NCBI GenBank assembly: GCA_030424645.1 | Contig: JAUHWP010000011.1 | Coordinates: forward strand, 1-42,958 | Origin: Alphaproteobacteria bacterium | Lineage (GTDB): Bacteria; Pseudomonadota; Alphaproteobacteria; Rhodobacterales; Rhodobacteraceae | Length of the DNA: 42,958 bases | Direction of reading: 5' to 3' | Part shown: positions 7,447 through 25,242 of the stretch, in pieces | How positions within the stretch are numbered: the stretch's first letter is position 1 | Layout: the number at the start of each line of letters is the position of its first letter | The notes under the pieces: generated by a model | The model's database searches: none | Told to the model about the DNA's origin: nothing | What the model saw: only the letters and a program-made list of their open reading frames with translations | Program-made: the position numbers and the translations under genes

Positions 7447-8172
7447 TTACCTGCCGCGATACACCAACCAGTCGGGCAAAATCGCAAGTGCACGGATCGC
7501 CCAGGAAAACGGTGCCGGGAAATCGGTGCGAAACCGGCGCCTTGTCAGTGCCTTCATCACGCGTGCCGCTGCGTCCTCGGGCGCCATCAACATGGGCATA
7601 CGAAACCTGTTCTTCCGGGTCAGGCGGGTCTTGATGAAACCGGGATTGACCACGCGCACCACAACGCCGGTGCCTTTGAGGTCGAAGCGCATCGTTTCCG
7701 CCAGGCTGATCAATGCCGCCTTGCTGGCCCCATAACCGATGGCGGCGGGTAGCCCACGATACCCGGCCAGCGACCCGACCAGAGTTATATCGCCCTGCCC
7801 CCGCGCGACGAAACGCGGCACAAGCTCGCCCAACAGGCGCAAGGCGCCCATGAAATTGACGTCGCACAGCGTCAGGGCCGTGTCGCCATCCCATTCGCTG
7901 GCGCGCATCGGCTCATATGCCCCGGCACAATAGATCAAACCGTCCACGTCGCCGATCAGGGCCACGGCCCGCCGGACTGCGTCGGTATCGGTCACATCAA
8001 GCGGCAGAACACGCGCCTGTGACAAGTCGGATTTCAGGCTTTCAAGCCTGTCGGCATTGCGCGCCGACAGGATCAACCGCGCGCCCTCGGCATCCAGGCG
8101 CTGAGCGAGCGTGCGCCCCAACCCTTCGCTTGCCCCGACAAGCCAGTATGTCTTGCCCGCAACGTCGATCAT
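7447..8172 (-). CDS. Short-chain dehydrogenase/reductase (SDR) family oxidoreductase
   Basis: NAD(P)-dependent classical SDR of 241 residues. The cofactor glycine motif GASEGLGRTLA is near residues 13-23, DVTD follows the Rossmann beta-strand, and YCAGAYEP stands in place of the usual NNAG. The catalytic Ser-Tyr-Lys set is in SLAGYRGLPAAIGYGASKAA, and the PGFIKTRLT loop follows the active site. The ATG at 8170-8172 overlaps the stop of the upstream DUF1365 gene (ATGA), so I rejected the longer reading frame that starts at 8331. It is the second gene of the minus arm of the lipid/stress module. SDR genes recur in this neighbourhood in Rhodobacteraceae; the substrate is unknown and could be an oxidised lipid or aldehyde. 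Confidence 0.9.
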   Translation of the reverse strand: MIDVAGKTYWLVGASEGLGRTLAQRLDAEGARLILSARNADRLESLKSDLSQARVLPLDVTDTDAVRRAVALIGDVDGLIYCAGAYEPMRASEWDGDTALTLCDVNFMGALRLLGELVPRFVARGQGDITLVGSLAGYRGLPAAIGYGASKAALISLAETMRFDLKGTGVVVRVVNPGFIKTRLTRKNRFRMPMLMAPEDAAARVMKALTRRRFRTDFPAPFSWAIRALAILPDWLVYRGR

Positions 8173-8939
8173 TCTACCGCCCCACCCGGATTTCGGCTGT
8201 CGGTCATCAGCGGCGATGGCGCGGGCTGCTTTTTCAGAAACGGCGCCCGCTTCAGGCTCAGGATCGCGGCTTGCCAGTGGATCAGCACCAGCACCCTCAG
8301 CGCGCCAAAAGGGCGCCGGATGGCCGCCCATGCCAACGAGGCACTGGTGGCAGGTCGGCGTTGCCCCGATAAGGTTGCCAGGACGCCCTGATCGCCATTC
8401 TCGAAGGAAATACGAATATCGACGCGAGTCTCGCTCAGGCAGAAATTGAACCGGTAATGTCCGGCAATCTTCTGAAACGGGGACACATGCATCAGCTTGT
8501 CGGCGATCAAGGTATCGCCACGTTCAATCGGGCGAAAATCGCCATGAGCACAGAAATAGCAGTGACGTTGGCCGAAGGTGTTGTTGACCTCGGCCACAAA
8601 GGCCCGCGGGGCGCCATCAACCAATGCGATCCAAAAGCTGACCGGGTTGAAGTGGAACCAAAGGAAGCTGGGCTGCGTCAGCAATAGAAGCTGCGCACCT
8701 TCGGTTCGAAAACCTCGGTTGTCCAGAACTTCCTTGAACCACGCCACGCCGTTTCCTTCGCCACGTATTCCGCCATGGTGGCGATCCCAGATGGACCAGA
8801 GATTGAACCGGTTGCGTGACAACAGCCCGGCATTGGTTTTCCCCAGATCGGTCAACACGAAATCGACACCATAGTTAAAGGTGTTTTTCAGATTGCCGCG
8901 CCGGGCATGAACGGTTTGGGCCTGAATATGTTCCAACAT
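8169..8939 (-). CDS. DUF1365 family protein (COG3496)
   Basis: A 256-residue protein of the DUF1365 family, whose biochemical function is not established. It typically lies next to a COG2907 flavoprotein and a Cfa-type methyltransferase, as here. Near the N-terminus is VHARRGNLKNTFNYGVDFVL, the family-typical start; FLWFHFNPVSFWIAL is in the middle. I see no signal peptide or clear membrane helix. Two adjacent ATGs occur (8942 and 8939). AGGA lies 6 bases before the second but only 3 before the first, so I chose 8939. The predicted promoter -10 lies just 8 bases upstream, which would give a nearly leaderless mRNA. The 3' end overlaps the SDR gene by 4 bp. Confidence 0.88.
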   Translation of the reverse strand: MLEHIQAQTVHARRGNLKNTFNYGVDFVLTDLGKTNAGLLSRNRFNLWSIWDRHHGGIRGEGNGVAWFKEVLDNRGFRTEGAQLLLLTQPSFLWFHFNPVSFWIALVDGAPRAFVAEVNNTFGQRHCYFCAHGDFRPIERGDTLIADKLMHVSPFQKIAGHYRFNFCLSETRVDIRISFENGDQGVLATLSGQRRPATSASLAWAAIRRPFGALRVLVLIHWQAAILSLKRAPFLKKQPAPSPLMTDSRNPGGAVE

Positions 8940-8946
8940 CATGGGT

Positions 8947-8976
8947 CCTATACGCGCGCGCGACGCCCCTGGATCA
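8947..8976 (-). promoter_or_regulatory. Putative RpoE/ECF-type promoter for the DUF1365-SDR operon
   Basis: On the minus strand TGATCC (plus-strand 8971-8976) is followed after 18 bases by TATAGG (8947-8952). TGATCC is the -35 element I recall for the singlet-oxygen sigma factor RpoE of Rhodobacter. The spacing is identical to that of the divergent partner. Transcription would begin about 6-7 bases downstream, essentially at the start codon. The sequence match is direct; the sigma-factor assignment is inference. Confidence 0.5.
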
Positions 8977-9007
8977 GTTCCCACCAGAATTCTTTTTTCA
9001 GCATTTC

Positions 9008-9037
9008 TGATCCAGTCCGCCGGATGCCGCGTAACGG
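9008..9037 (+). promoter_or_regulatory. Putative RpoE/ECF-type promoter for the flavoprotein-Cfa operon
   Basis: TGATCC at 9008-9013, an 18-base spacer, then TAACGG at 9032-9037. It points toward the flavoprotein gene and would leave a leader of about 20-25 bases that includes the AAGGATGAGGG ribosome-binding region. It is the mirror image of the minus-strand promoter 31 bases away, with the same -35 hexamer and the same spacing, which makes chance less likely. Confidence 0.55.
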
Positions 9038-9066
9038 TCCCATACGATTGCAAGGATGAGGGTGGT

Positions 9067-10410
9067 ATGTTCGATCAGTTTCAGGGTGCACGAAAGAAGA
9101 TCGCCATCATCGGCGGCGGCATATCGGGCCTTTCGGCGGCTTACTACCTAACGCCCCACCATGACGTGACGCTGTTCGAGGCTGCCCCGAGACTGGGTGG
9201 CCACGCCCGAACGGTGATGGCAGGCAAGAACGGCGACCAACCGGTTGATACCGGCTTTATCGTGTTCAACTATGTAACCTATCCCTACCTGACTCGCCTG
9301 TTCAGGGACCTCGATGTGCCCGTGATGAAAAGCGAGATGAGTTTCGCCGCCAGCATCAATGATGGCTGGCTGGAATATGGCCTGAACAACATGGGTGCGA
9401 TCACGGCGCAAAAAAGCAACCTGCTGCGCCCCCAGTTTTACAGGATGATCGCCGACATTATCCGCTTTGGCAAACGCGCCGAAGCCGCCGCCACGGATGA
9501 TGACAAGACCATTGGTGAACTGGTGGATGAACTGGGCCTGGGCGACTGGTTCCGCAACAACTACCTGATGCCGATGTGCGGGGCGATCTGGTCGACACCG
9601 GTTGAAGACGTGGACCGTTTCCCGGCGAAGTCGCTTGTTCGGTTCTTTCGCAACCACGCGCTTTTGGCCGGCTCCGGGGAACATCAGTGGTGGACGGTCA
9701 AGGGCGGAAGCATCGAATACGTGCGTCGGTTAGAAGCCGCGCTTCTGGCGCGGGGTTGCAGCATTCGCGCCAAAACGGCGATCCGGCACGTTCAACGGGG
9801 CGCTCTTGACGTGCGCGTCATGGCCGATCAAGGCGTGTCGGCAACCTTCGACGAGGTCATCATGGCCTGTCATTCGGATCAGGCCCTGCAAATTCTTGGT
9901 GAAGACGCAACACAGGCCGAGGTCGATGCCCTTGGCCGTATTCGATTTCAGACCAACACCGCAGTATTGCATTGTGATGCAAATCAGATGCCGCGGCGCC
10001 GTTCCTGTTGGTCCAGCTGGGCCTATCGGTCTCAGGACGGCGATATCGGTCTTACCTACTGGATGAACCGGCTTCAGAACATACCCGAATCCGACCCGCT
10101 GTTTGTCACCCTGAACCCGTCAACCGAGATCCCACGGGACACGATTTATGACGAGGTGCAATTCGCCCATCCGGTTTTTGACAAGAACGCGCTGCGGGCA
10201 CAGCGGGACATCCGCCAAATGCAGGGCCGCAATCGGACATGGTTTGCCGGGGCGTGGAACCGGCACGGGTTTCACGAGGACGGTATCGCCAGCGCCATGC
10301 GCATCGTGCGCGCCCTGAACGAACGTCACCACTTCAAAGGAATGGACAATGCGCTTGACCAACAAGGCCCTGAAATCGAATTTCCTGTCGACCTGCGAGC
10401 GTCTGCATGA
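9067..10410 (+). CDS. FAD/NAD(P)-binding amine-oxidase-like flavoprotein (COG2907)
   Basis: Flavoprotein of 447 residues. The N-terminal dinucleotide-binding motif KIAIIGGGISGLSAAYYL (about residues 11-28) is followed by the acidic strand end LFEAAPRLGGHARTV, the amine-oxidase/phytoene-desaturase pattern. A substrate-domain segment MCGAIWSTPVEDVDRFP and a C-terminal FAD contact GAWNRHGFHEDGIASAMR are also present. COG2907 members co-occur with DUF1365 and Cfa-type genes and have been described as cyclopropane/cyclopropene fatty-acid-associated proteins. A fatty-acyl desaturase or oxidase role on membrane lipids is plausible but inferred. I chose the ATG at 9067 because the glycine motif begins 14 residues later and a GAGGG site precedes it. 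The end overlaps the methyltransferase gene by 62 bp. Confidence 0.88.
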   Translation: MFDQFQGARKKIAIIGGGISGLSAAYYLTPHHDVTLFEAAPRLGGHARTVMAGKNGDQPVDTGFIVFNYVTYPYLTRLFRDLDVPVMKSEMSFAASINDGWLEYGLNNMGAITAQKSNLLRPQFYRMIADIIRFGKRAEAAATDDDKTIGELVDELGLGDWFRNNYLMPMCGAIWSTPVEDVDRFPAKSLVRFFRNHALLAGSGEHQWWTVKGGSIEYVRRLEAALLARGCSIRAKTAIRHVQRGALDVRVMADQGVSATFDEVIMACHSDQALQILGEDATQAEVDALGRIRFQTNTAVLHCDANQMPRRRSCWSSWAYRSQDGDIGLTYWMNRLQNIPESDPLFVTLNPSTEIPRDTIYDEVQFAHPVFDKNALRAQRDIRQMQGRNRTWFAGAWNRHGFHEDGIASAMRIVRALNERHHFKGMDNALDQQGPEIEFPVDLRASA

Positions 10411-11506
10411 GGGGCAACTGACCCTGCACACACCCGAGGGTGAGCGTTATCACTTTGGCCAGTCCGGCCCCGAGGCAGAGATGGTCATTCGCGACTGGGC
10501 CGCCGTGTCGGCGCTTGCGGCGCATGGCCAGGTCGGGCTGGGAGAAACCTATGTTCAGGGCCTGTGGGACACGCCGTCGGTCGAAGGCCTGGTCGCTCTG
10601 GCAATGCGCAATCGCGATCATCTTGGCGCGTTTGACCAGGCAAGCCCGTTCAACAAGGCAAGATTCCGGCTGGTTGATACCGTGTTGCGGGCCAATTCGC
10701 GTCGCGGGTCCCGCAAGAACATTCGCGCGCATTACGATGTGGGCAACGAGTTTTACGCATTGTGGTTGGACGACGGGATGACCTATTCGTCCGGGTTGTT
10801 CACCCAATCCGACGATGATCTGACACGCGCCCAATCCCGCAAGAACGCGCGTGCCTTGTCGCGGCTAAGCGATGGCGAACGGGTTTTGGAAGTCGGGTGT
10901 GGCTGGGGTGGGTTTGCCGAGCACGCAAGTCAGGAAGGTCGCCACGTGACCGGCGTAACCGTATCGCGCAACCAGCACAGCTATGCCGAATGCCGTCTTG
11001 ATGGTCGTGCCGACATCCAGCTTCGCGACTATCGCGACATTGACGGGCAATATGACAACATCGTTTCGATCGAGATGATAGAAGCCGTTGGCGAACGTTA
11101 CTGGCCCAGCTATTTCGCCACACTCAAGCGTAGCCTGGCCGAGGGCGGACGCGTCCTGTTGCAGGCAATTACCGTCAAGGACAGTTTCTTTGACACTTAC
11201 AAAACCTCGTCCGACTACATCCGCCAATACGTCTTTCCCGGTGGCATGCTGTTGTCCGACAGCGTGATCGAAGCCCAGGCGAAAAAAGCGGGGTTTGCCG
11301 TTCGGGACAGTTTCGCGTTCGGTCAGGACTACGCCAGAACCTGCCGGATCTGGGCCGAACGGTTGAACTTCCAGAAACGCCGGATCTTCGAAATGGGATA
11401 TGGCGAAGGCTTCTTCCGCAACTGGCAATACTATCTTGAGATTTGCGCGGCCTCTTTTGCGGTTGGTCACACAGATGTCGTTCAGGTGGAACTGGCCCAT
11501 GCATAG
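10349..11506 (+). CDS. Cyclopropane-fatty-acyl-phospholipid synthase family methyltransferase
   Basis: SAM-dependent methyltransferase (385 residues) acting, by family, on cis-double bonds of unsaturated phospholipid acyl chains. The SAM motif is VLEVGCGWGGFAEHA (about residue 178), containing the cysteine conserved in Cfa enzymes. Further on, SIEMIEAVGERYW carries the conserved glutamate, then LLQAITVKD and QYVFPGGMLLSDS. Close relatives in Rhodobacter make methylated unsaturated or furan fatty acids rather than cyclopropanes, so the product here is uncertain. It starts at the ATG at 10349 with AAAGGA about 8 bases upstream, inside the end of the flavoprotein gene, so the two are tightly coupled. 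The stop overlaps the next start by 8 bp. Confidence 0.9.
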   Translation: MRLTNKALKSNFLSTCERLHEGQLTLHTPEGERYHFGQSGPEAEMVIRDWAAVSALAAHGQVGLGETYVQGLWDTPSVEGLVALAMRNRDHLGAFDQASPFNKARFRLVDTVLRANSRRGSRKNIRAHYDVGNEFYALWLDDGMTYSSGLFTQSDDDLTRAQSRKNARALSRLSDGERVLEVGCGWGGFAEHASQEGRHVTGVTVSRNQHSYAECRLDGRADIQLRDYRDIDGQYDNIVSIEMIEAVGERYWPSYFATLKRSLAEGGRVLLQAITVKDSFFDTYKTSSDYIRQYVFPGGMLLSDSVIEAQAKKAGFAVRDSFAFGQDYARTCRIWAERLNFQKRRIFEMGYGEGFFRNWQYYLEICAASFAVGHTDVVQVELAHA

Positions 11507-11993
11507 GATCCTTCTTTTCCTTGCAACTCTGGTCATTCCCCTCGGCGCACAGGCCTCTACCATCAAATCGGTGCTGCCGGGCGCGGAACTGCGCGGCACG
11601 GCAACCTTCCGGTATCTTGGTTTCCCACTTTACGAGGCCCAGCTTTACACCATTGCAGGCGCCCCGCTGGATTGGAGCAAGGATTTCGGACTTGAACTGA
11701 AATACCTGCGCAACCTGACCAAATTCGATCTGGTCGAAAGCACGATACGCGAACTGAACCGCACCGGCACAGCCCTGCCCGTCCGCGGTCAATTGGAAAG
11801 ATGCTTCAGGGGGGTGCAAAAAGGCGACCGCTATGTCGCCGTCACCAGCGGACCGGACCAAATCCGATTCTGGTTCAATGAAGCGCGCGTCTGCACACTG
11901 AGCCACCCGCAGATCAAAACCCGCTTCATGGCCATTTTCCTAGGCACGGATACCCGCTCGAAATCCTTCACCCGGAAGCTGAAAGGCGAATGA
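11499..11993 (+). CDS. Exported chalcone-isomerase-like protein
   Basis: A protein of 164 residues with a clear signal peptide (MHRILLFLATLVIPLGAQAS, cleavage near residue 20). The mature part resembles bacterial chalcone-isomerase-like proteins: ELRGTATFRYLGFPLYEAQLYT, then LELKYLRNLTKFDLVESTIREL, then a region with CFRGVQKGDRYVAV, and a C-terminal FLGTDTRSKSFTRKL. Members of this fold can bind fatty acids; no catalysis is known for the bacterial secreted branch. It begins inside the end of the Cfa-like gene, and its stop overlaps the MFS start (ATGATG). A periplasmic lipid- or fatty-acid-binding role in the module would fit; this is inference. Confidence 0.8.
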   Translation: MHRILLFLATLVIPLGAQASTIKSVLPGAELRGTATFRYLGFPLYEAQLYTIAGAPLDWSKDFGLELKYLRNLTKFDLVESTIRELNRTGTALPVRGQLERCFRGVQKGDRYVAVTSGPDQIRFWFNEARVCTLSHPQIKTRFMAIFLGTDTRSKSFTRKLKGE

Positions 11994-13219
11994 TGCTGTA
12001 TCCGCGTGTCAGCTTCTATGCACTCATGCTGGCTGCGGCGGGCATCCCGCTTTACATCCATTTGCCTCGGTTCGCCTCGATCGAACTTGGCATCGGATTG
12101 GGCGCCATCGGCACGATCCTGCTCGGGATACGGCTGGTCGATCTTGTGCAGGACCCGTTGATCGGTTGGGCTATTGACCGCTGGCCAAAGGCACAAAGCC
12201 TGTTTGCCAGTGCCGCAGCGCTTGGGCTGGCCATCGGTTTTCCACTGCTTTTTTCCGCCCAACCAGGCCCAAATATTGTGCCTCGGCTCATCGCCATTCT
12301 TGTGCTGCTGTTCTCGGCCTATAGCCTTGGCATGATCCTGCTTTACGGTCGCAGCGCAACGCTCACAACCTCGCCGACAGGGCGCGAGCTGATGACGCTG
12401 GCCGCCTTTCGTGAAGGGGGCATGTTGGCAGGTGTAATCATTGCTGCTGTCGCCCCGGCGGTCTTTGTCGCCCTCGGTGCTGATCGAGAAGGATATCGGG
12501 CTTTTGGCCTCTTTCTTGGTGTGCTGGCCGTTGTCACGGCCGCGATCACTCTGCCGATCTGGCGCCGCGAACCGATCCAGGGCGAGCGGCTTTCCCTTTA
12601 TGGTCTTCGTCAGGCCGGAGCATTACGGCTTCTGGCGCTGGCGCTGGTCAACAGCCTTCCGGTCGCCATCACGTCGACCCTGTTTCTGTTCTTTGTCGAA
12701 GATCGTTTGCGACTGGGGGGCTTGGCTGGTCCCCTGCTGATCCTGTTCTTTCTCAGCGCGGGCCTCAGCGTGCCGCTCTGGGCGCGGATGAGCCAGAAAC
12801 TGGGACCCAAGACCACCTTGTTGATAGCCATGCCGCTTGCCATCCTCGGATTTGTCGGTGCGGCGTTCCTGGCCCCCGGCAACCTGCCAGGTTTTGCCGC
12901 GATTTGCGTGGCGTCTGGTGCCGCGCTGGGGGCAGATATGGTCATCCTGCCTGCGATGTTTTCCGTGGCGCTGACCCGCGCGGGCCTCAAGGCGTCGCTG
13001 GCCTTTGGCATCTGGTCCTTTGCCGGAAAACTTGGCCTTGCCCTGGCCGCCTTTGCCGTCCTTCCGATGCTTGAGCATAGTGGCTTCACCCCCGGTGCAC
13101 CAAACAGCGCCACAGCCCTCAGCACATTGAATATCTTTTACGCTGTCATTCCCTGCATCCTGAAACTTGGCGCCGTGGCACTTGTCCTCGCGCTTCCCAC
13201 GGAGGCTCCAATCCAATGA
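11990..13219 (+). CDS. MFS transporter, GPH/MelB-like (MFS_2) family
   Basis: A membrane protein of 409 residues with about 12 hydrophobic segments. The N-terminal half has the GPH-family pattern LGAIGTILLGIRLVDLVQDP followed by IDRWPKAQ in the first cytoplasmic loop, where the acidic residue of cation symporters sits. GPH carriers usually move sugars, but a member of this branch recurs beside COG2907/DUF1365/Cfa genes, so its substrate may be lipid-related or a stress metabolite. Two start codons are possible (11990 and 11993), and the first overlaps the previous stop. The 3' end overlaps the DUF3833 gene by 4 bp. Confidence 0.87.
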   Translation: MMLYPRVSFYALMLAAAGIPLYIHLPRFASIELGIGLGAIGTILLGIRLVDLVQDPLIGWAIDRWPKAQSLFASAAALGLAIGFPLLFSAQPGPNIVPRLIAILVLLFSAYSLGMILLYGRSATLTTSPTGRELMTLAAFREGGMLAGVIIAAVAPAVFVALGADREGYRAFGLFLGVLAVVTAAITLPIWRREPIQGERLSLYGLRQAGALRLLALALVNSLPVAITSTLFLFFVEDRLRLGGLAGPLLILFFLSAGLSVPLWARMSQKLGPKTTLLIAMPLAILGFVGAAFLAPGNLPGFAAICVASGAALGADMVILPAMFSVALTRAGLKASLAFGIWSFAGKLGLALAAFAVLPMLEHSGFTPGAPNSATALSTLNIFYAVIPCILKLGAVALVLALPTEAPIQ

Positions 13220-13776
13220 AACTCCTCACTGCCCTGCTTGCTCTTTTCGTTCTGATCATGGCCGCAAAGTCCATGTTTCTAAGCTTTCGCGCACAGAACC
13301 CATCCGACTATGCCGATACCGGCCCCGCTTTCTCGCTGAAAACCCACCTGTCTGGCGAAATCCTTGCCGAAGGCCTGATTTATGGCCCAACCGGCAAAAT
13401 GACCAACAGCTTCGTCGCCCGAATGATCGGCGAATGGGACGGGGACACCGGGACACTGAGCGAAGAGTTCACCTATTCCAACGGCAAGCAGCAAAGGCGC
13501 AAATGGTTCCTGAAACTTGGTGAGGGGAACCGTTTCACCGCAACTGCCGACGATATTGTCGGCGAGGCACAAGGCACCGTGTCGGGATCGACCATCAAGA
13601 TGGAATACCGGATCGTTTTGCCGGACGACGCAGGGGGTCACACGTTGACTGCCACTGATTGGCTTTACCTGACCGAAAACGGCACCATCATGAACAAGTC
13701 CGAAATGCGCAAGTTCGGCATCAAGGTGGCCGAACTGATCGCAACCATGCGCCCGAACCCCGAAGCACGGCGCTGA
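13216..13776 (+). CDS. DUF3833 family protein
   Basis: A protein of 186 residues. The hydrophobic N-terminus (LLTALLALFVLIMAAKSMFL) acts as a signal peptide or membrane anchor. The body has DUF3833 features: FSLKTHLSGEILAEGLIYGP, GEWDGDTGTLSEEFTYSNG, and the C-terminal WLYLTENGTIMNKSEMRKFG. It looks like a beta-rich, calycin-like fold, but the function is unknown. It is the last gene of the plus arm, coupled to the MFS gene by ATGA. Many family members are lipoproteins; this one has no lipobox cysteine in its first 30 residues. Confidence 0.82.
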   Translation: MKLLTALLALFVLIMAAKSMFLSFRAQNPSDYADTGPAFSLKTHLSGEILAEGLIYGPTGKMTNSFVARMIGEWDGDTGTLSEEFTYSNGKQQRRKWFLKLGEGNRFTATADDIVGEAQGTVSGSTIKMEYRIVLPDDAGGHTLTATDWLYLTENGTIMNKSEMRKFGIKVAELIATMRPNPEARR

Positions 13777-14283
13777 ACGGGTTTCGACCCGGGCTATTTC
13801 CCATCAGCCTGAGCTTCTCACCGGTTCAACCAGCCGGATCGGTCTTGGGCATCCGGGGCGCGACCATTGCCTGGCGGATCGTCGGGGCCATCTGGAAGTT
13901 GCCCGATGCACCACATGGTGTGCATTGAAAGCTTATGTGCGTCCCTTTGCCGAGCAACCTATGTCTTGGCGTTTTCTGGATAACCAACGCTGCTTCAAGT
14001 CTGGCGACGGCGATGATCTTTCCCATGGCGAGCTTTGCGACTGTGGCAAGGACAGACACGGGAAGCGACATGCCGGTTTGGCCGGTTCACGCGATCGCGC
14101 TTTTCGGCGGATGGCTGACGGTGGCGCCCGGGGTTGGCGCGCCGGTGTTGTTCTTGGCTGCAACGGCGTCGGCGGCGCGGGGATGCCGTTAACCTTGCAG
14201 CCCCGACACCGACAGCGCGACAGGATTTGGGCGATCTTGGGGGGCCGCATGGAATTATCCCTAAATCTCGGTTAGGGTTGCAG
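13777..14283. other. Gap after the lipid module; no convincing gene
   Basis: About 500 bases without a supported gene. A plus-strand frame from 13935 to 14192 (85 residues) has two hydrophobic stretches (e.g. VHAIALFGGWLTVAPGVGA) and no family I recognise. It starts directly after an in-frame stop and has no clear ribosome-binding site, so it may be a fragment or chance. The region must contain the promoter of the exported protein that follows. I see no terminator with a good T-run after the DUF3833 gene. Confidence 0.4.
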
Positions 14284-15138
14284 ATGCTACGCGGCAATCA
14301 AGCGGGAGGTTTCGCCTTGATAAGGACATTGAAACCAGCATTGGCAGTGCTCCTGACCACCCTTGTGGTGCTTCCGACCGACGCGGTGGCCTGCCGGTTC
14401 CGCGGGGCGCCGGATATGTGCTCGAATGAAGCGCAAGATGCAGTTTTCTGGGTTGGGGAATGGGAGGGGCCGCAGCTCTCCCTTCGGCTCGAAATGAACG
14501 GAGTGGCGGTCACGCCGCAACACGATCCCTACGGGTCGATGACGCTGTTCGAGCTGGACGGTCAGCTGGGATTTGCCGGGGACGGCGTGTTGCGCGGAGA
14601 GGCCGAATTGACCAGCGTGCAGGGTGAATACATCGACCCGCTGGACCCCGCATGGGACTGGCTCAATGATGACGAGACCATCGATTTACTGGACGAATAC
14701 GGGGCCGAGTACACGACGGATCGAATAATCAATCCCTGCGGCTATCGGGAATGGCCCCGATGGACAGGCACCTATCTGCACCCGGAAGGTCTGACCATGT
14801 CGCTGACCATGATCGGCATGAGGGTCGATGCGATGTTGGGTCGGATCTACTACCGGGGTCCGTTGCGCGATCAAAGCGTGACGCTGGACAGCCGGTTCCT
14901 GATGCGCCGGTATTCCTTCGACACCAGCGGCTGGACCTGGCTGGGTCCGAACGTCACCGAGGACTGTCAAGCGTTGTGCATGGACGGCCTTATTCGGGGA
15001 TGGGACGACCGGGTTGCAGAGGTGACAGCCGAGGATTGCCAGAATCTCTGCACCAATGGTGAGATTGTCTTCCGGCGCCCCCCGGATCGTCCTATAGCGA
15101 TCAGGCCAGGCGTCTGGGAAAACTGTCCGGCTGATTAA
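14284..15138 (+). CDS. Exported protein of unknown function with a cysteine repeat
   Basis: I do not recognise this protein (284 residues from the ATG at 14284). It has a signal peptide (LKPALAVLLTTLVVLPTDAVA) followed at once by a cysteine pair (ACRFRGAPDMC), so it is probably periplasmic with disulfides. Near the C-terminus a short unit is repeated: TEDCQALCMDG and TAEDCQNLCTNG, 21 residues apart. The middle is acidic and aspartate-rich (DPLDPAWDWLNDDETIDLLD). An alternative start is the TTG at 14317, which has a better ribosome-binding site (GGGAGG, 7 bases upstream) and gives a standard-length signal peptide; this could be the true start. Its neighbours give no functional hint. Confidence 0.7.
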   Translation: MLRGNQAGGFALIRTLKPALAVLLTTLVVLPTDAVACRFRGAPDMCSNEAQDAVFWVGEWEGPQLSLRLEMNGVAVTPQHDPYGSMTLFELDGQLGFAGDGVLRGEAELTSVQGEYIDPLDPAWDWLNDDETIDLLDEYGAEYTTDRIINPCGYREWPRWTGTYLHPEGLTMSLTMIGMRVDAMLGRIYYRGPLRDQSVTLDSRFLMRRYSFDTSGWTWLGPNVTEDCQALCMDGLIRGWDDRVAEVTAEDCQNLCTNGEIVFRRPPDRPIAIRPGVWENCPAD

Positions 15139-15240: not shown

Positions 15241-15822
15241 TCATCGCGTCAAGATGATTTCCATCCGACCGAACATGGGCGCGCCATTATAGGTGAGTTG
15301 CGATCTGATGATCCCGTGGATCATGGTCTCATCAATAATGACCAGCCGATACGTGTCCTCCTTCAAGCCGTCGCCGAACGGGAACAGGCCGGTTGCCGAC
15401 AGGATGGGAAGTTGGCCGTCGTCGCATCCGGCCAGAATGTTCAGCTCTTCTTCGCTCGACAGTGCCGGGGGCATGTGAGATTCCACATCTGGAAACAGCG
15501 TGCGGCCCTCTTCCCAGGACAAGGGCAACGGCTCGGGCAGCTCAGACGAGGTCATGGCCAGTTGGCCGCGAGCCTCGTCAAACGAAAGGTTCATCGGCGG
15601 CAGAGCTGGAAATTCCTCGACTGGCATCGTCATGATCTCTTCGCGATAAAGCGTATGCCCCGCGACCGCCTTAACCTGCCAGGTGCCCTCCAGCATCGGC
15701 GCTATTGTCAGGAAATAGGCCGGGTCGGTGACGTCGCAGAAGCCGGGAGTTTGTCCCGCAGCGGGGGCCAAGGTTACGGCGGTTGCGGCAAAGGCAATTG
15801 CCATGGGCGAGATGATGTGCAT
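15241..15822 (-). CDS. Exported protein of unknown function
   Basis: A protein of 193 residues with a signal peptide (MAIAFAATAVTLAPAAGQ, cleavage near residue 24). Two cysteines (GFCDVTDP and LAGCDDG) could form one disulfide in the periplasm. The segment YFLTIAPMLEGTWQV resembles the start of a lipocalin-like or calycin beta-barrel, and the C-terminal half alternates as beta-strands (YRLVIIDETMIHGIIRSQL). No family is recognised with confidence. It is convergent with the cysteine-repeat gene and divergent from nothing obvious, and lies between the lipid module and tRNA-Phe. Confidence 0.7.
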   Translation of the reverse strand: MHIISPMAIAFAATAVTLAPAAGQTPGFCDVTDPAYFLTIAPMLEGTWQVKAVAGHTLYREEIMTMPVEEFPALPPMNLSFDEARGQLAMTSSELPEPLPLSWEEGRTLFPDVESHMPPALSSEEELNILAGCDDGQLPILSATGLFPFGDGLKEDTYRLVIIDETMIHGIIRSQLTYNGAPMFGRMEIILTR

Positions 15823-24599: not shown

Positions 24600-24630
24600 T
24601 GATCCAGAGGCACCTAAGCCTCGTATTAGG
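24600..24630 (+). promoter_or_regulatory. Possible TGATCC-type promoter for the outer-membrane protein gene
   Basis: TGATCC at 24600-24605, an 18-base spacer, then TATTAGG at 24624-24630. This is the same -35 hexamer and spacing as the two divergent promoters near 9.0 kb. The spacer holds an inverted repeat GAGGC/GCCTC. It would give a leader of about 20 bases. The assignment is weaker than for the divergent pair because only one side is seen. Confidence 0.35.
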
Positions 24631-24657
24631 GCCACAGATAACGAGAGGATGGAACAC

Positions 24658-25242
24658 ATGTTGAAGACGTTTTCTTACACCACAGCGGTCATCGCACTGA
24701 CAGCGACAACCGCATTGGCCGGAAGCATGGCAGAACCGGCGCCAGAGCCGACCATTGCCTATACCCCCGCCCCGGCTGCCATGCCGGACTGGACCGGCGC
24801 CTATATCGGTGCCCAGATCGGTTTCGCCGATGTCGGCACCACCGCCGCAGGTGTCGAAGGCGACGGAGTCATCGGTGGTCTGACCGCGGGTTACGATTTC
24901 GATATGGGCAACTGGGTCGCCGGTGTCGGGATCGACTATGACTGGGCCGATGTGGATGTTGGCGGCGTTGCCAACCTTGAGAACGTCCTGCGCATCAAGG
25001 CGCGTGGCGGTTACAAGATGGGCGACGGGCTGCTCTACGCGACCGCTGGTTACGCCAATGCCTATACGGACACGCTGGGTGACAGCGATGGCTATTTCAT
25101 CGGTGCCGGCTATGAACATCGCGTGACCAGCTCATTCAACCTGGGCGCGGAAGTTCTGTATCATGAGTTTGCCGATTTCAACGGCAGCGGCGTCGATGTC
25201 GACGCAACCACGATCCAGTTGCGCGGTACCTTCCGCTTCTGA
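24658..25242 (+). CDS. Outer-membrane beta-barrel protein (opacity/porin-like)
   Basis: A 194-residue exported protein with a signal peptide (LKTFSYTTAVIALTATTALA). A short Pro/Ala-rich linker is followed by an eight-strand-type barrel starting DWTGAYIGAQIGFADV, a hallmark of Omp25/opacity-like porin-family proteins. Alternating strands follow (NWVAGVGIDYDWADVDVGG), and the C-terminus TTIQLRGTFRF ends in the aromatic residue needed for barrel assembly. Two in-frame ATGs occur (24649 and 24658); GAGAGG is optimally placed for the second, which also gives a normal signal peptide. It is followed by a strong hairpin. Confidence 0.88.
   Translation: MLKTFSYTTAVIALTATTALAGSMAEPAPEPTIAYTPAPAAMPDWTGAYIGAQIGFADVGTTAAGVEGDGVIGGLTAGYDFDMGNWVAGVGIDYDWADVDVGGVANLENVLRIKARGGYKMGDGLLYATAGYANAYTDTLGDSDGYFIGAGYEHRVTSSFNLGAEVLYHEFADFNGSGVDVDATTIQLRGTFRF

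Follow-up and report, generated by a model that had tools for sequence, protein, structure and literature searches.

The window analysed here is the whole of one contig (C173; JAUHWP010000011.1, 42,958 nucleotides) from the draft genome of a member of the Rhodobacteraceae (3,242,835 bases in 208 contigs, 91.6% complete). At positions 7447–13776 it carries a seven-gene locus that, judged from its sequence, is very probably a roseobacter-type furan fatty acid (ufa) locus under the sigma factor RpoE (ECF11) and its partner ChrR. The same furan chemistry and the same RpoE control would then operate in this organism. The original prediction had taken these genes for the best candidate for an undescribed system and the DUF1365 protein among them for one with no established function. 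Both claims were wrong or out of date. The DUF1365 protein is UfaO, whose function was published in 2020 (PMC7380195), and the short-chain dehydrogenase/reductase (SDR), the major facilitator superfamily (MFS) carrier and the DUF3833 protein match the RSP_1091-1087 operon of Rhodobacter sphaeroides; as a system, the locus is therefore not undescribed. Its core is the published ufa pathway, and what is new is the accessory part with an exported chalcone-isomerase-like (CHI-like) protein.

Furan fatty acids are thought to protect membranes against singlet oxygen by scavenging it. They are present in some plants, fish and microbes (PMC7380195). The R. sphaeroides operon RSP_1091-1087 is a neighbour of rpoE-chrR (PMC3818230). 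Its products include the NAD/FAD-type desaturase UfaD (RSP_1091) and the DUF1365 protein UfaO (RSP_1090), which inserts O2 into the furan ring (PMC7380195). The methylase UfaM is RSP2144 (PMC7380195), from a gene pair, RSP_2143-2144, that is annotated phrA-cfaS (PMC7074977). For proteins of R. sphaeroides and R. palustris, Lemke et al. 2020 showed the methylation and desaturation of acyl chains on phospholipids and the insertion of O2 (PMC7380195). RSP_1089, RSP_1088 and RSP_1087, annotated as a GPH-family sugar/cation symporter, a hypothetical protein and an SDR, respectively (PMC7074977 Table 1), are transcribed together with the furan pathway genes (PMC7380195). A review places the furan fatty acid genes in a conserved core regulon of about eight genes (PMC6852236), and activation of RpoE by singlet oxygen is weak in mutants lacking RSP_1090 or furan fatty acid genes (PMC6852236, PMC3818230). 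The available passages of PMC3441632 and PMC3420878 contain nothing on this locus.

As had been predicted, the seven genes form two divergent arms with overlapping ends, and Pfam confirms their families (start codons were picked by eye). The minus-strand arm consists of UfaO (8169–8942; PF07103, E 4.4e-61), by homology the furan-forming oxygenase, and an SDR oxidoreductase of 241 aa (7447–8172; PF00106, E 1.4e-38), the two genes overlapping by 4 bp. UfaO has no solved relative by sequence, its sole match (E 0.37) being a chance one. The plus-strand arm starts with UfaD (9067–10410; PF01593, E 9e-22), by homology an FAD-type desaturase of methyl-branched fatty acyl chains, which adjoins UfaO across the gap between the arms. 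It continues with a UfaM-type S-adenosylmethionine methylase of the CMAS family (10349–11506; PF02353, E 1.4e-75), the exported CHI-like protein (11499–11993; signal peptide ending at AQA-S, by eye), an MFS_2 (GPH-type) carrier of 409 aa (11990–13219; PF13347, E 3.4e-42) and a DUF3833 protein of 186 aa with a membrane anchor recognized by eye (13216–13776; PF12915, E 1.9e-54). Flavoprotein and methylase genes overlap by at most 62 bp, depending on the start chosen; the overlaps further along are 8 bp (methylase/CHI-like), 4 bp (CHI-like/MFS) and 4 bp (MFS/DUF3833).

Orthology to UfaD, UfaO and UfaM was assigned from families, gene layout and a tree of CMAS proteins. The R. sphaeroides proteins RSP1089, RSP1088 and RSP1087 have 402, 186 and 245 aa, against 409, 186 and 241 aa for their window counterparts; the DUF3833 protein and the SDR correspond to RSP_1088 and RSP_1087 by position and length. 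Two relatives from the same family (G131 and G212) have the genes in the R. sphaeroides-like layout, with UfaD-UfaO-MFS_2-DUF3833-SDR divergent from rpoE-chrR, and in both the single close CMAS match comes immediately after a photolyase, as in R. sphaeroides. This layout, together with the matching lengths, identifies the window locus as a ufa locus. The kinship to Rhodobacter furan fatty acid loci that the original prediction had suggested is thus borne out by the UfaD, UfaO and RSP_1089-1087 matches, and homology likewise upholds its proposal that the set acts on membrane lipids.

The arrangement is conserved. A search with the CHI-like protein returned 13 named roseobacter-group loci, in which a CHI-like gene is present by construction; the other six genes, the SDR among them, stand in the same divergent order in 13/13. 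A record of Ruegeria pomeroyi (L078) also carries the locus. The arrangement is therefore not a matter of chance, and the reading of the genes as chance neighbours is ruled out by this order and by the linkage survey described below.

Both arms appear to be read from RpoE-type promoters. The gap between them holds two divergent TGATCC-N16-CGTA sites, one on the plus strand (9008–9033, 33 nt upstream of the ufaD ATG) and one on the minus strand (8976–8951, 8 nt upstream of the first ufaO ATG). This motif is the published consensus for the RpoE/ChrR-type sigma factor of Pseudomonas syringae (PMC5507510), and a similar one has been used for Vibrio cholerae (PMC5241685). Three such sites occur in the window, where a first-order Markov model expects 0.075. 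Moreover, both arm-start sites (TGATCY-N16-CGTA) are found in the window and all 13 named loci (14/14; L073 has TGATCT at both). Across the 252,217 bases of these 13 loci, 26 motif sites lie in the gaps and 14 elsewhere, several of the latter preceding rpoE. RpoE/ECF11-type promoters are thus predicted for both arms. Eight bases separate the predicted -10 box of the minus arm from the first ATG of ufaO (8939–8976, minus strand), so that ufaO may be transcribed without a leader or may truly start further downstream.

The rest of the genome points the same way. A looser pattern, TGATCC-N18-TA, occurs 67 times, compared with 2 occurrences of a reversed control pattern, and 12 of the 67 sites end in CGTA. 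Eight of these 12 lie 3–43 bases upstream of a start codon, and the remaining four are apparently intragenic (by eye). The eight precede rpoE, the two ufa arms and genes for a photolyase, a fasciclin, a ferrochelatase, TctB and an outer-membrane beta-barrel; the RpoE regulon of R. sphaeroides also includes a photolyase and a fasciclin gene (PMC7074977). The photolyase with the motif (contig C204) is only 41–43% identical to the photolyases beside CMAS genes in relatives (L129–L132), and its identity with them is thus uncertain. A cognate ChrR is encoded on contig C113 (TIGR02451, over cut-off), with a motif site before rpoE. In 12 of the 13 named loci rpoE-chrR lies directly beyond the SDR gene; in the thirteenth, L072, the pair is absent from the stretch covered. 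In the window itself, an exact motif site stands 23 bases before the outer-membrane beta-barrel gene (PF13505; site and gene at 24600–25242, plus strand), which is possibly a further member of the RpoE-ChrR regulon.

We asked how firmly the genes are linked in 289 genomes of the window's class, the Alphaproteobacteria. DUF3833 was found in 110, DUF1365 in 153, ChrR over its curated cut-off in 114 and the CHI-like protein in 22; the linkage statistics cover 150 of the 153 DUF1365-positive genomes and, for ChrR, only the 114 of 166 matches that exceed this cut-off. Counting genes no more than 10 kb apart as linked, we found DUF3833 linked to DUF1365 in 75 of the 102 genomes that have both (about 0.6 expected), the CHI-like gene linked to DUF3833 in 12 of 20 such genomes (0.1 expected), and the CHI-like gene linked to DUF1365 in 9 of 18. 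The linkage of the accessory genes to the rest, which the original prediction had put up for refutation by genome survey, was upheld, with the reservation that the CHI-like gene is an accessory one. Gene neighbourhoods were inspected at 60 loci, comprising the 30 best-scoring DUF3833 and the 30 best-scoring DUF1365 matches and not a random draw: MFS_2 adjoins DUF3833 in 27/30 of the former, and a UfaD-type gene adjoins DUF1365 in 30/30 of the latter. RSP_1089-1087 have been stated to be limited to Rhodobacteraceae (PMC3818230). Our survey gives a wider distribution: many of the inspected loci belong to other families of the class, and there too MFS_2, DUF3833 and SDR genes are found next to ufa genes.

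Several known systems resemble the window locus. The closest, R. sphaeroides RSP_1091-1087 with RSP_2143-2144, shares UfaD, UfaO, MFS_2, DUF3833, SDR and an RpoE promoter. It differs from the window in that here the two arms diverge from each other with one promoter each, the cluster contains a UfaM-type gene of another subgroup and an additional CHI-like gene, and rpoE-chrR is on a separate contig. Rhodopseudomonas palustris has ufaD, ufaO and ufaM in one cluster (RPA2571-2569), like the window, although gene order and accessory genes differ; an R. sphaeroides triple mutant made 9M5-FuFA with these three genes (PMC7380195). The photo-oxidative stress clusters of Pseudomonas and Vibrio, under RpoE-ChrR or LitR, contain the same core families (phrB, an SDR, a flavoprotein, an RSP_1090 homologue and cfa/ufaM), and their sigma-factor motif, TGATC(C)-N16(-18)-CGTA, is like that in the window (PMC5507510, PMC5241685, PMC9758184). 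In Arabidopsis, AtUFAMD1 and AtUFAO1 are UfaM/UfaD-like and DUF1365 proteins of putative activity, but the UfaM and UfaD parts are fused in one protein (PMC10940516).

Homology and layout suggest how the locus would work. On singlet oxygen stress ChrR would free RpoE, and the two divergent transcription units would be read. The UfaM-type enzyme would methylate an unsaturated acyl chain on existing phospholipids, UfaD would form a methylated diene, and UfaO would add O2 and close the furan ring. The SDR, the CHI-like protein, the MFS_2 carrier and the DUF3833 protein would most likely act after synthesis.

Deletion of RSP1087, RSP1088 or RSP1089 in a delta-chrR strain of R. sphaeroides left the fatty acid profile unchanged (PMC7380195), so those genes are not needed for synthesis. 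The fatty-acid profiling of deletions that the original prediction proposed has in this way been published in part, for R. sphaeroides and with a negative outcome for these three genes. An unchanged profile would agree with a role after synthesis; it is no proof of one, and we count it below among the points on the other side. In such a role, furan lipids, or what singlet oxygen makes of them, would be carried or held on their way through inner membrane and periplasm by the MFS_2 carrier, the CHI-fold protein and the DUF3833 barrel, while the SDR would reduce the carbonyls of oxidized products. That the locus has a post-synthesis half of this kind, in one form or another, seems to us quite possible, if short of probable; a lipid-moving arm is plausible.

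Which form it might take is a matter for tentative statements. One serious possibility, though a somewhat doubtful one, is that the four proteins repair or clear oxidized lipids and do not deliver furan lipids. Their cargo would be the dioxo-ene products expected from singlet-oxygen opening of the furan ring, which they would take up or remove. Membership of the same regulon, the linkage evidence, the presence of an SDR and the unchanged profiles of the published deletions all speak for such a role, in which direction and substrate are hypothetical. More speculative, and in our view doubtful, is the proposal that the CHI-like protein, the carrier and the DUF3833 protein form a dedicated envelope relay for furan or opened acyl lipids, with a bacterial counterpart of the lysophosphatidylcholine symporter MFSD2A working alongside a periplasmic CHI-fold fatty-acid binder. 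The relay would be induced with the pathway so that the scavenger reaches, or the spent product leaves, the damaged membrane leaflet.

The family label of the CHI-like protein can be given with some assurance. It is barely visible in the window sequence itself, which matches PF16036 (Chalcone_3) at E 0.0083, below the gathering score. However, PF16036 is matched at E ≤ 0.01 in 20/20 aligned homologues (best 1.3e-16), and the predicted fold agrees, so that the chalcone-isomerase-like label of the original prediction is firm. The AlphaFold2 model (mean predicted local distance difference test score (pLDDT) 86.5) has 45 Foldseek matches at E ≤ 0.001, and the top 50 listed are all of CHI type. The closest is the plant fatty-acid-binding protein AtFAP1 (4doo; E 3.3e-7, template modelling (TM) score 0.65), followed by FAP3, Aim18 and chalcone isomerase types. 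AtFAP1 shares about 10% identity with the bacterial protein, which unlike it carries a signal peptide and whose ligand binding is a prediction; a role as fatty-acid or lipid binder is possible. A sequence search found no solved relative for the family.

The CHI-like gene keeps company above all with the carrier. We counted 37 CHI-bearing genomes: 22 from the class survey (the window's included), G293, G324 and the 13 named loci (G319 was taken as named locus L069 and not added). In 27 of the 37 the CHI-like gene is beside MFS_2, and in 14 of the 24 that remain without the 13 close named relatives. The pair can also travel apart from the pathway. The ufa cluster of G018 has neither CHI nor MFS_2; a CHI-MFS_2 pair lies about 0.9 Mb away (L135), with an exact RpoE-type site starting 113 bases before the CHI match. 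In G324, UfaO is beside rpoE-chrR, about 156 kb from an SDR/UfaD-CHI-MFS_2-DUF3833-DUF3833 block, and each of the two places has two divergent RpoE-type sites (L223, L224). From these sites, the CHI-like/MFS pair appears to be switched on together with the furan pathway. A further grouping, of photolyase, DUF3833, CHI-like and SDR genes without MFS_2 and away from the ufa core, was seen at L096 and L099 (genomes G181 and G257). The listed titles and openings of abstracts gave no link between a CHI-like protein and the furan pathway, a mention in the subscription literature being possible; the word 'chalcone' is absent from the three articles on the Pseudomonas and Vibrio clusters (PMC5507510, PMC5241685, PMC9758184).

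The carrier belongs to the MFS_2 family and is related to both the sugar symporter MelB and MFSD2A. The single window protein scores MelB at 5e-7 and MFSD2A at 8e-4. A profile of 24 homologues matches MelB at 2.5e-28 and four MFSD2A-type entries at 1.5e-27 to 4.4e-25. Residues D51, D55 and K347 are invariant in the 24 homologues and align with the cation-site acidic pair and lysine common to MelB and MFSD2A; they therefore do not separate the two types. In MelB the sugar-binding residues are the aspartates D19 and D124, and the matching positions in the window protein are not acidic (by eye; the D19 position was extrapolated beyond the printed alignment). The lysophosphatidylcholine symporter MFSD2A/NLS1 shares with the window carrier the MFS_2 type, a profile match at 1.5e-27 and the Asp pair with Lys, whereas the window carrier is bacterial, is about equally close to MelB and has a lipid as a proposed substrate only.

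We consider it unlikely that this protein is a symporter of sugars or other small solutes, as its GPH family annotation has it, unrelated to lipids. The PF13347/GPH assignment, the likeness to MelB, the annotation of RSP_1089 as a sugar/cation symporter and the far better MelB score of the single protein are what one would expect of a sugar symporter. Nevertheless, the family profile matches MFSD2A about as well as MelB, the positions of the MelB sugar aspartates are non-acidic while the cation-site residues are invariant, and the carrier is steadily paired with the CHI-fold protein. A possible lipid carrier remains our preferred description.

The DUF3833 protein is modelled as a ten-stranded, nitrobindin-like beta-barrel (mean pLDDT 87.4). 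Below its top Foldseek match come nitrobindin, BFA1, THAP4, a spirocyclase and the FABP-like Ycf58 (E 1e-4 to 6e-4). Several other lineages have a lipobox-like Cys at the N terminus (by eye), where the roseobacter copy has a hydrophobic anchor without such a Cys. A second DUF3833 gene stands just 3' of the module at L066 (13162–13632), L068, L069 (12594–13064), L070, L074, L075 and L223; in the four aligned it is 26–28% identical to the window's, and some have a lipobox-like N terminus. None was found downstream of the module in the window.

These folds leave room for another ligand: the CHI-like protein might bind haem or something else, and together with DUF3833 handle haem or NO and not lipid. 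The Foldseek matches of the CHI-like model include yeast Aim18/Aim46, called hemoproteins in the title of PMC9996372, nitrobindin is among the DUF3833 matches, and a ferrochelatase gene is one of those with a motif site. We nonetheless think this distinctly unlikely, as the top CHI fold match is the fatty-acid-binding AtFAP1 and no His is found among the invariant columns of the roseobacter CHI-like set.

The methylase was placed with a quick maximum-likelihood tree of 97 CMAS proteins, which includes outgroup rows on long branches and an odd long row (L166) and in which the position of UfaM was set by photolyase synteny, not by the UfaM sequence. The window protein falls in a 79-row clade (SH-like approximate likelihood ratio test (SH-aLRT) 100) whose members come from ufa clusters or are photolyase-linked, except for four that have no neighbour of either kind in reach; on this tree it is of the UfaM type. 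The rows outside the clade are two solved cyclopropane synthases, one odd row and 15 further CMAS proteins that form a group. Within it, the window methylase belongs to subgroup B, where 21 of 28 rows have a CHI-like gene within 2.5 kb. We considered whether the CHI-like gene is tied solely to this subgroup and dropped the idea: the CHI-bearing cluster of G324 contains no CMAS gene, and the CMAS protein encoded near such a cluster in G243 groups with the photolyase-linked type.

A second methylase gene of the same genome (contig C146, 3853–5004; L133) lies in a mainly photolyase-linked subgroup of 22 rows. Because both proteins are in the UfaM-type clade, the organism has two UfaM-type enzymes. 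By eye, the C146 gene has neighbours like those at the photolyase-CMAS locus in relatives, but a photolyase next to it was not found in this genome, nor was a motif site with fewer than two mismatches in the 300 nt upstream. In relatives the motif before the photolyase varies: it is exact in G018, has one mismatch in G212, and has at least three mismatches at best in G131 and G281. In the same doubtful reading as the envelope relay set out above, the two UfaM-type methylases of roseobacters, the cluster enzyme and a second one whose gene lies or once lay next to a photolyase, may differ in the methyl-branched or dimethyl products that they make.

That the cluster enzyme is instead an ordinary cyclopropane synthase, with the locus making cyclopropane and not furan fatty acids, is very improbable: its top NCBIfam and PDB matches are named cyclopropane synthases, but it reaches 241 bits against a Cfa equivalog cut-off of 400, groups inside the 79-row clade with CMAS proteins of ufa clusters and of the RSP_2143-2144 layout while the solved Cfa proteins stay outside, and has UfaD and UfaO as partners.

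Several observations weigh against a furan locus with a lipid-handling half, and we set them out together. In the window's draft genome rpoE-chrR lies on another contig, and with a second UfaM-type gene on C146 either methylase could feed UfaD. The two solved Cfa references are long branches that do not join the 15-row 'Cfa-like' group, so that the tree gives the grouping of the methylase and not its product. The R. sphaeroides deletions left the fatty acid profile as it was. Some ufa clusters (L170–L173) are without MFS_2, CHI and DUF3833. The CHI-like gene itself occurs in 4 of 41 genomes of the window's family, compared with 37 of 41 for DUF1365, and across the class its presence is not associated with that of ChrR (Fisher p 0.35). 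Among the 37 CHI-bearing genomes, two (G181 and G257) have CHI beside DUF3833 without MFS_2, and eight show no linkage within the stretches examined; six of these eight are among the lower nine of the 22 survey scores, and in two of them, G111 and G093, the gene's position close to the end of a contig or on a short one may hide a link. Finally, the CHI and DUF3833 fold matches are distant (TM 0.4–0.67, 6–16% identity at E ≤ 0.001), and the top DUF3833 match is a designed retro-aldolase barrel.

Two predicted exported proteins adjoin the module (14134–15138, plus strand, and 15241–15822, minus strand); at the thresholds used, neither has a Pfam or NCBIfam match.

The interest of this locus lies in an unexplained but recurring pair of lipid-binding and transport type that is tied to a known stress lipid. 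The CHI-MFS pair, including the separated pair with its own RpoE-type site, poses the question of whether bacteria that make furan lipids may also have a carrier and a binding protein for them.

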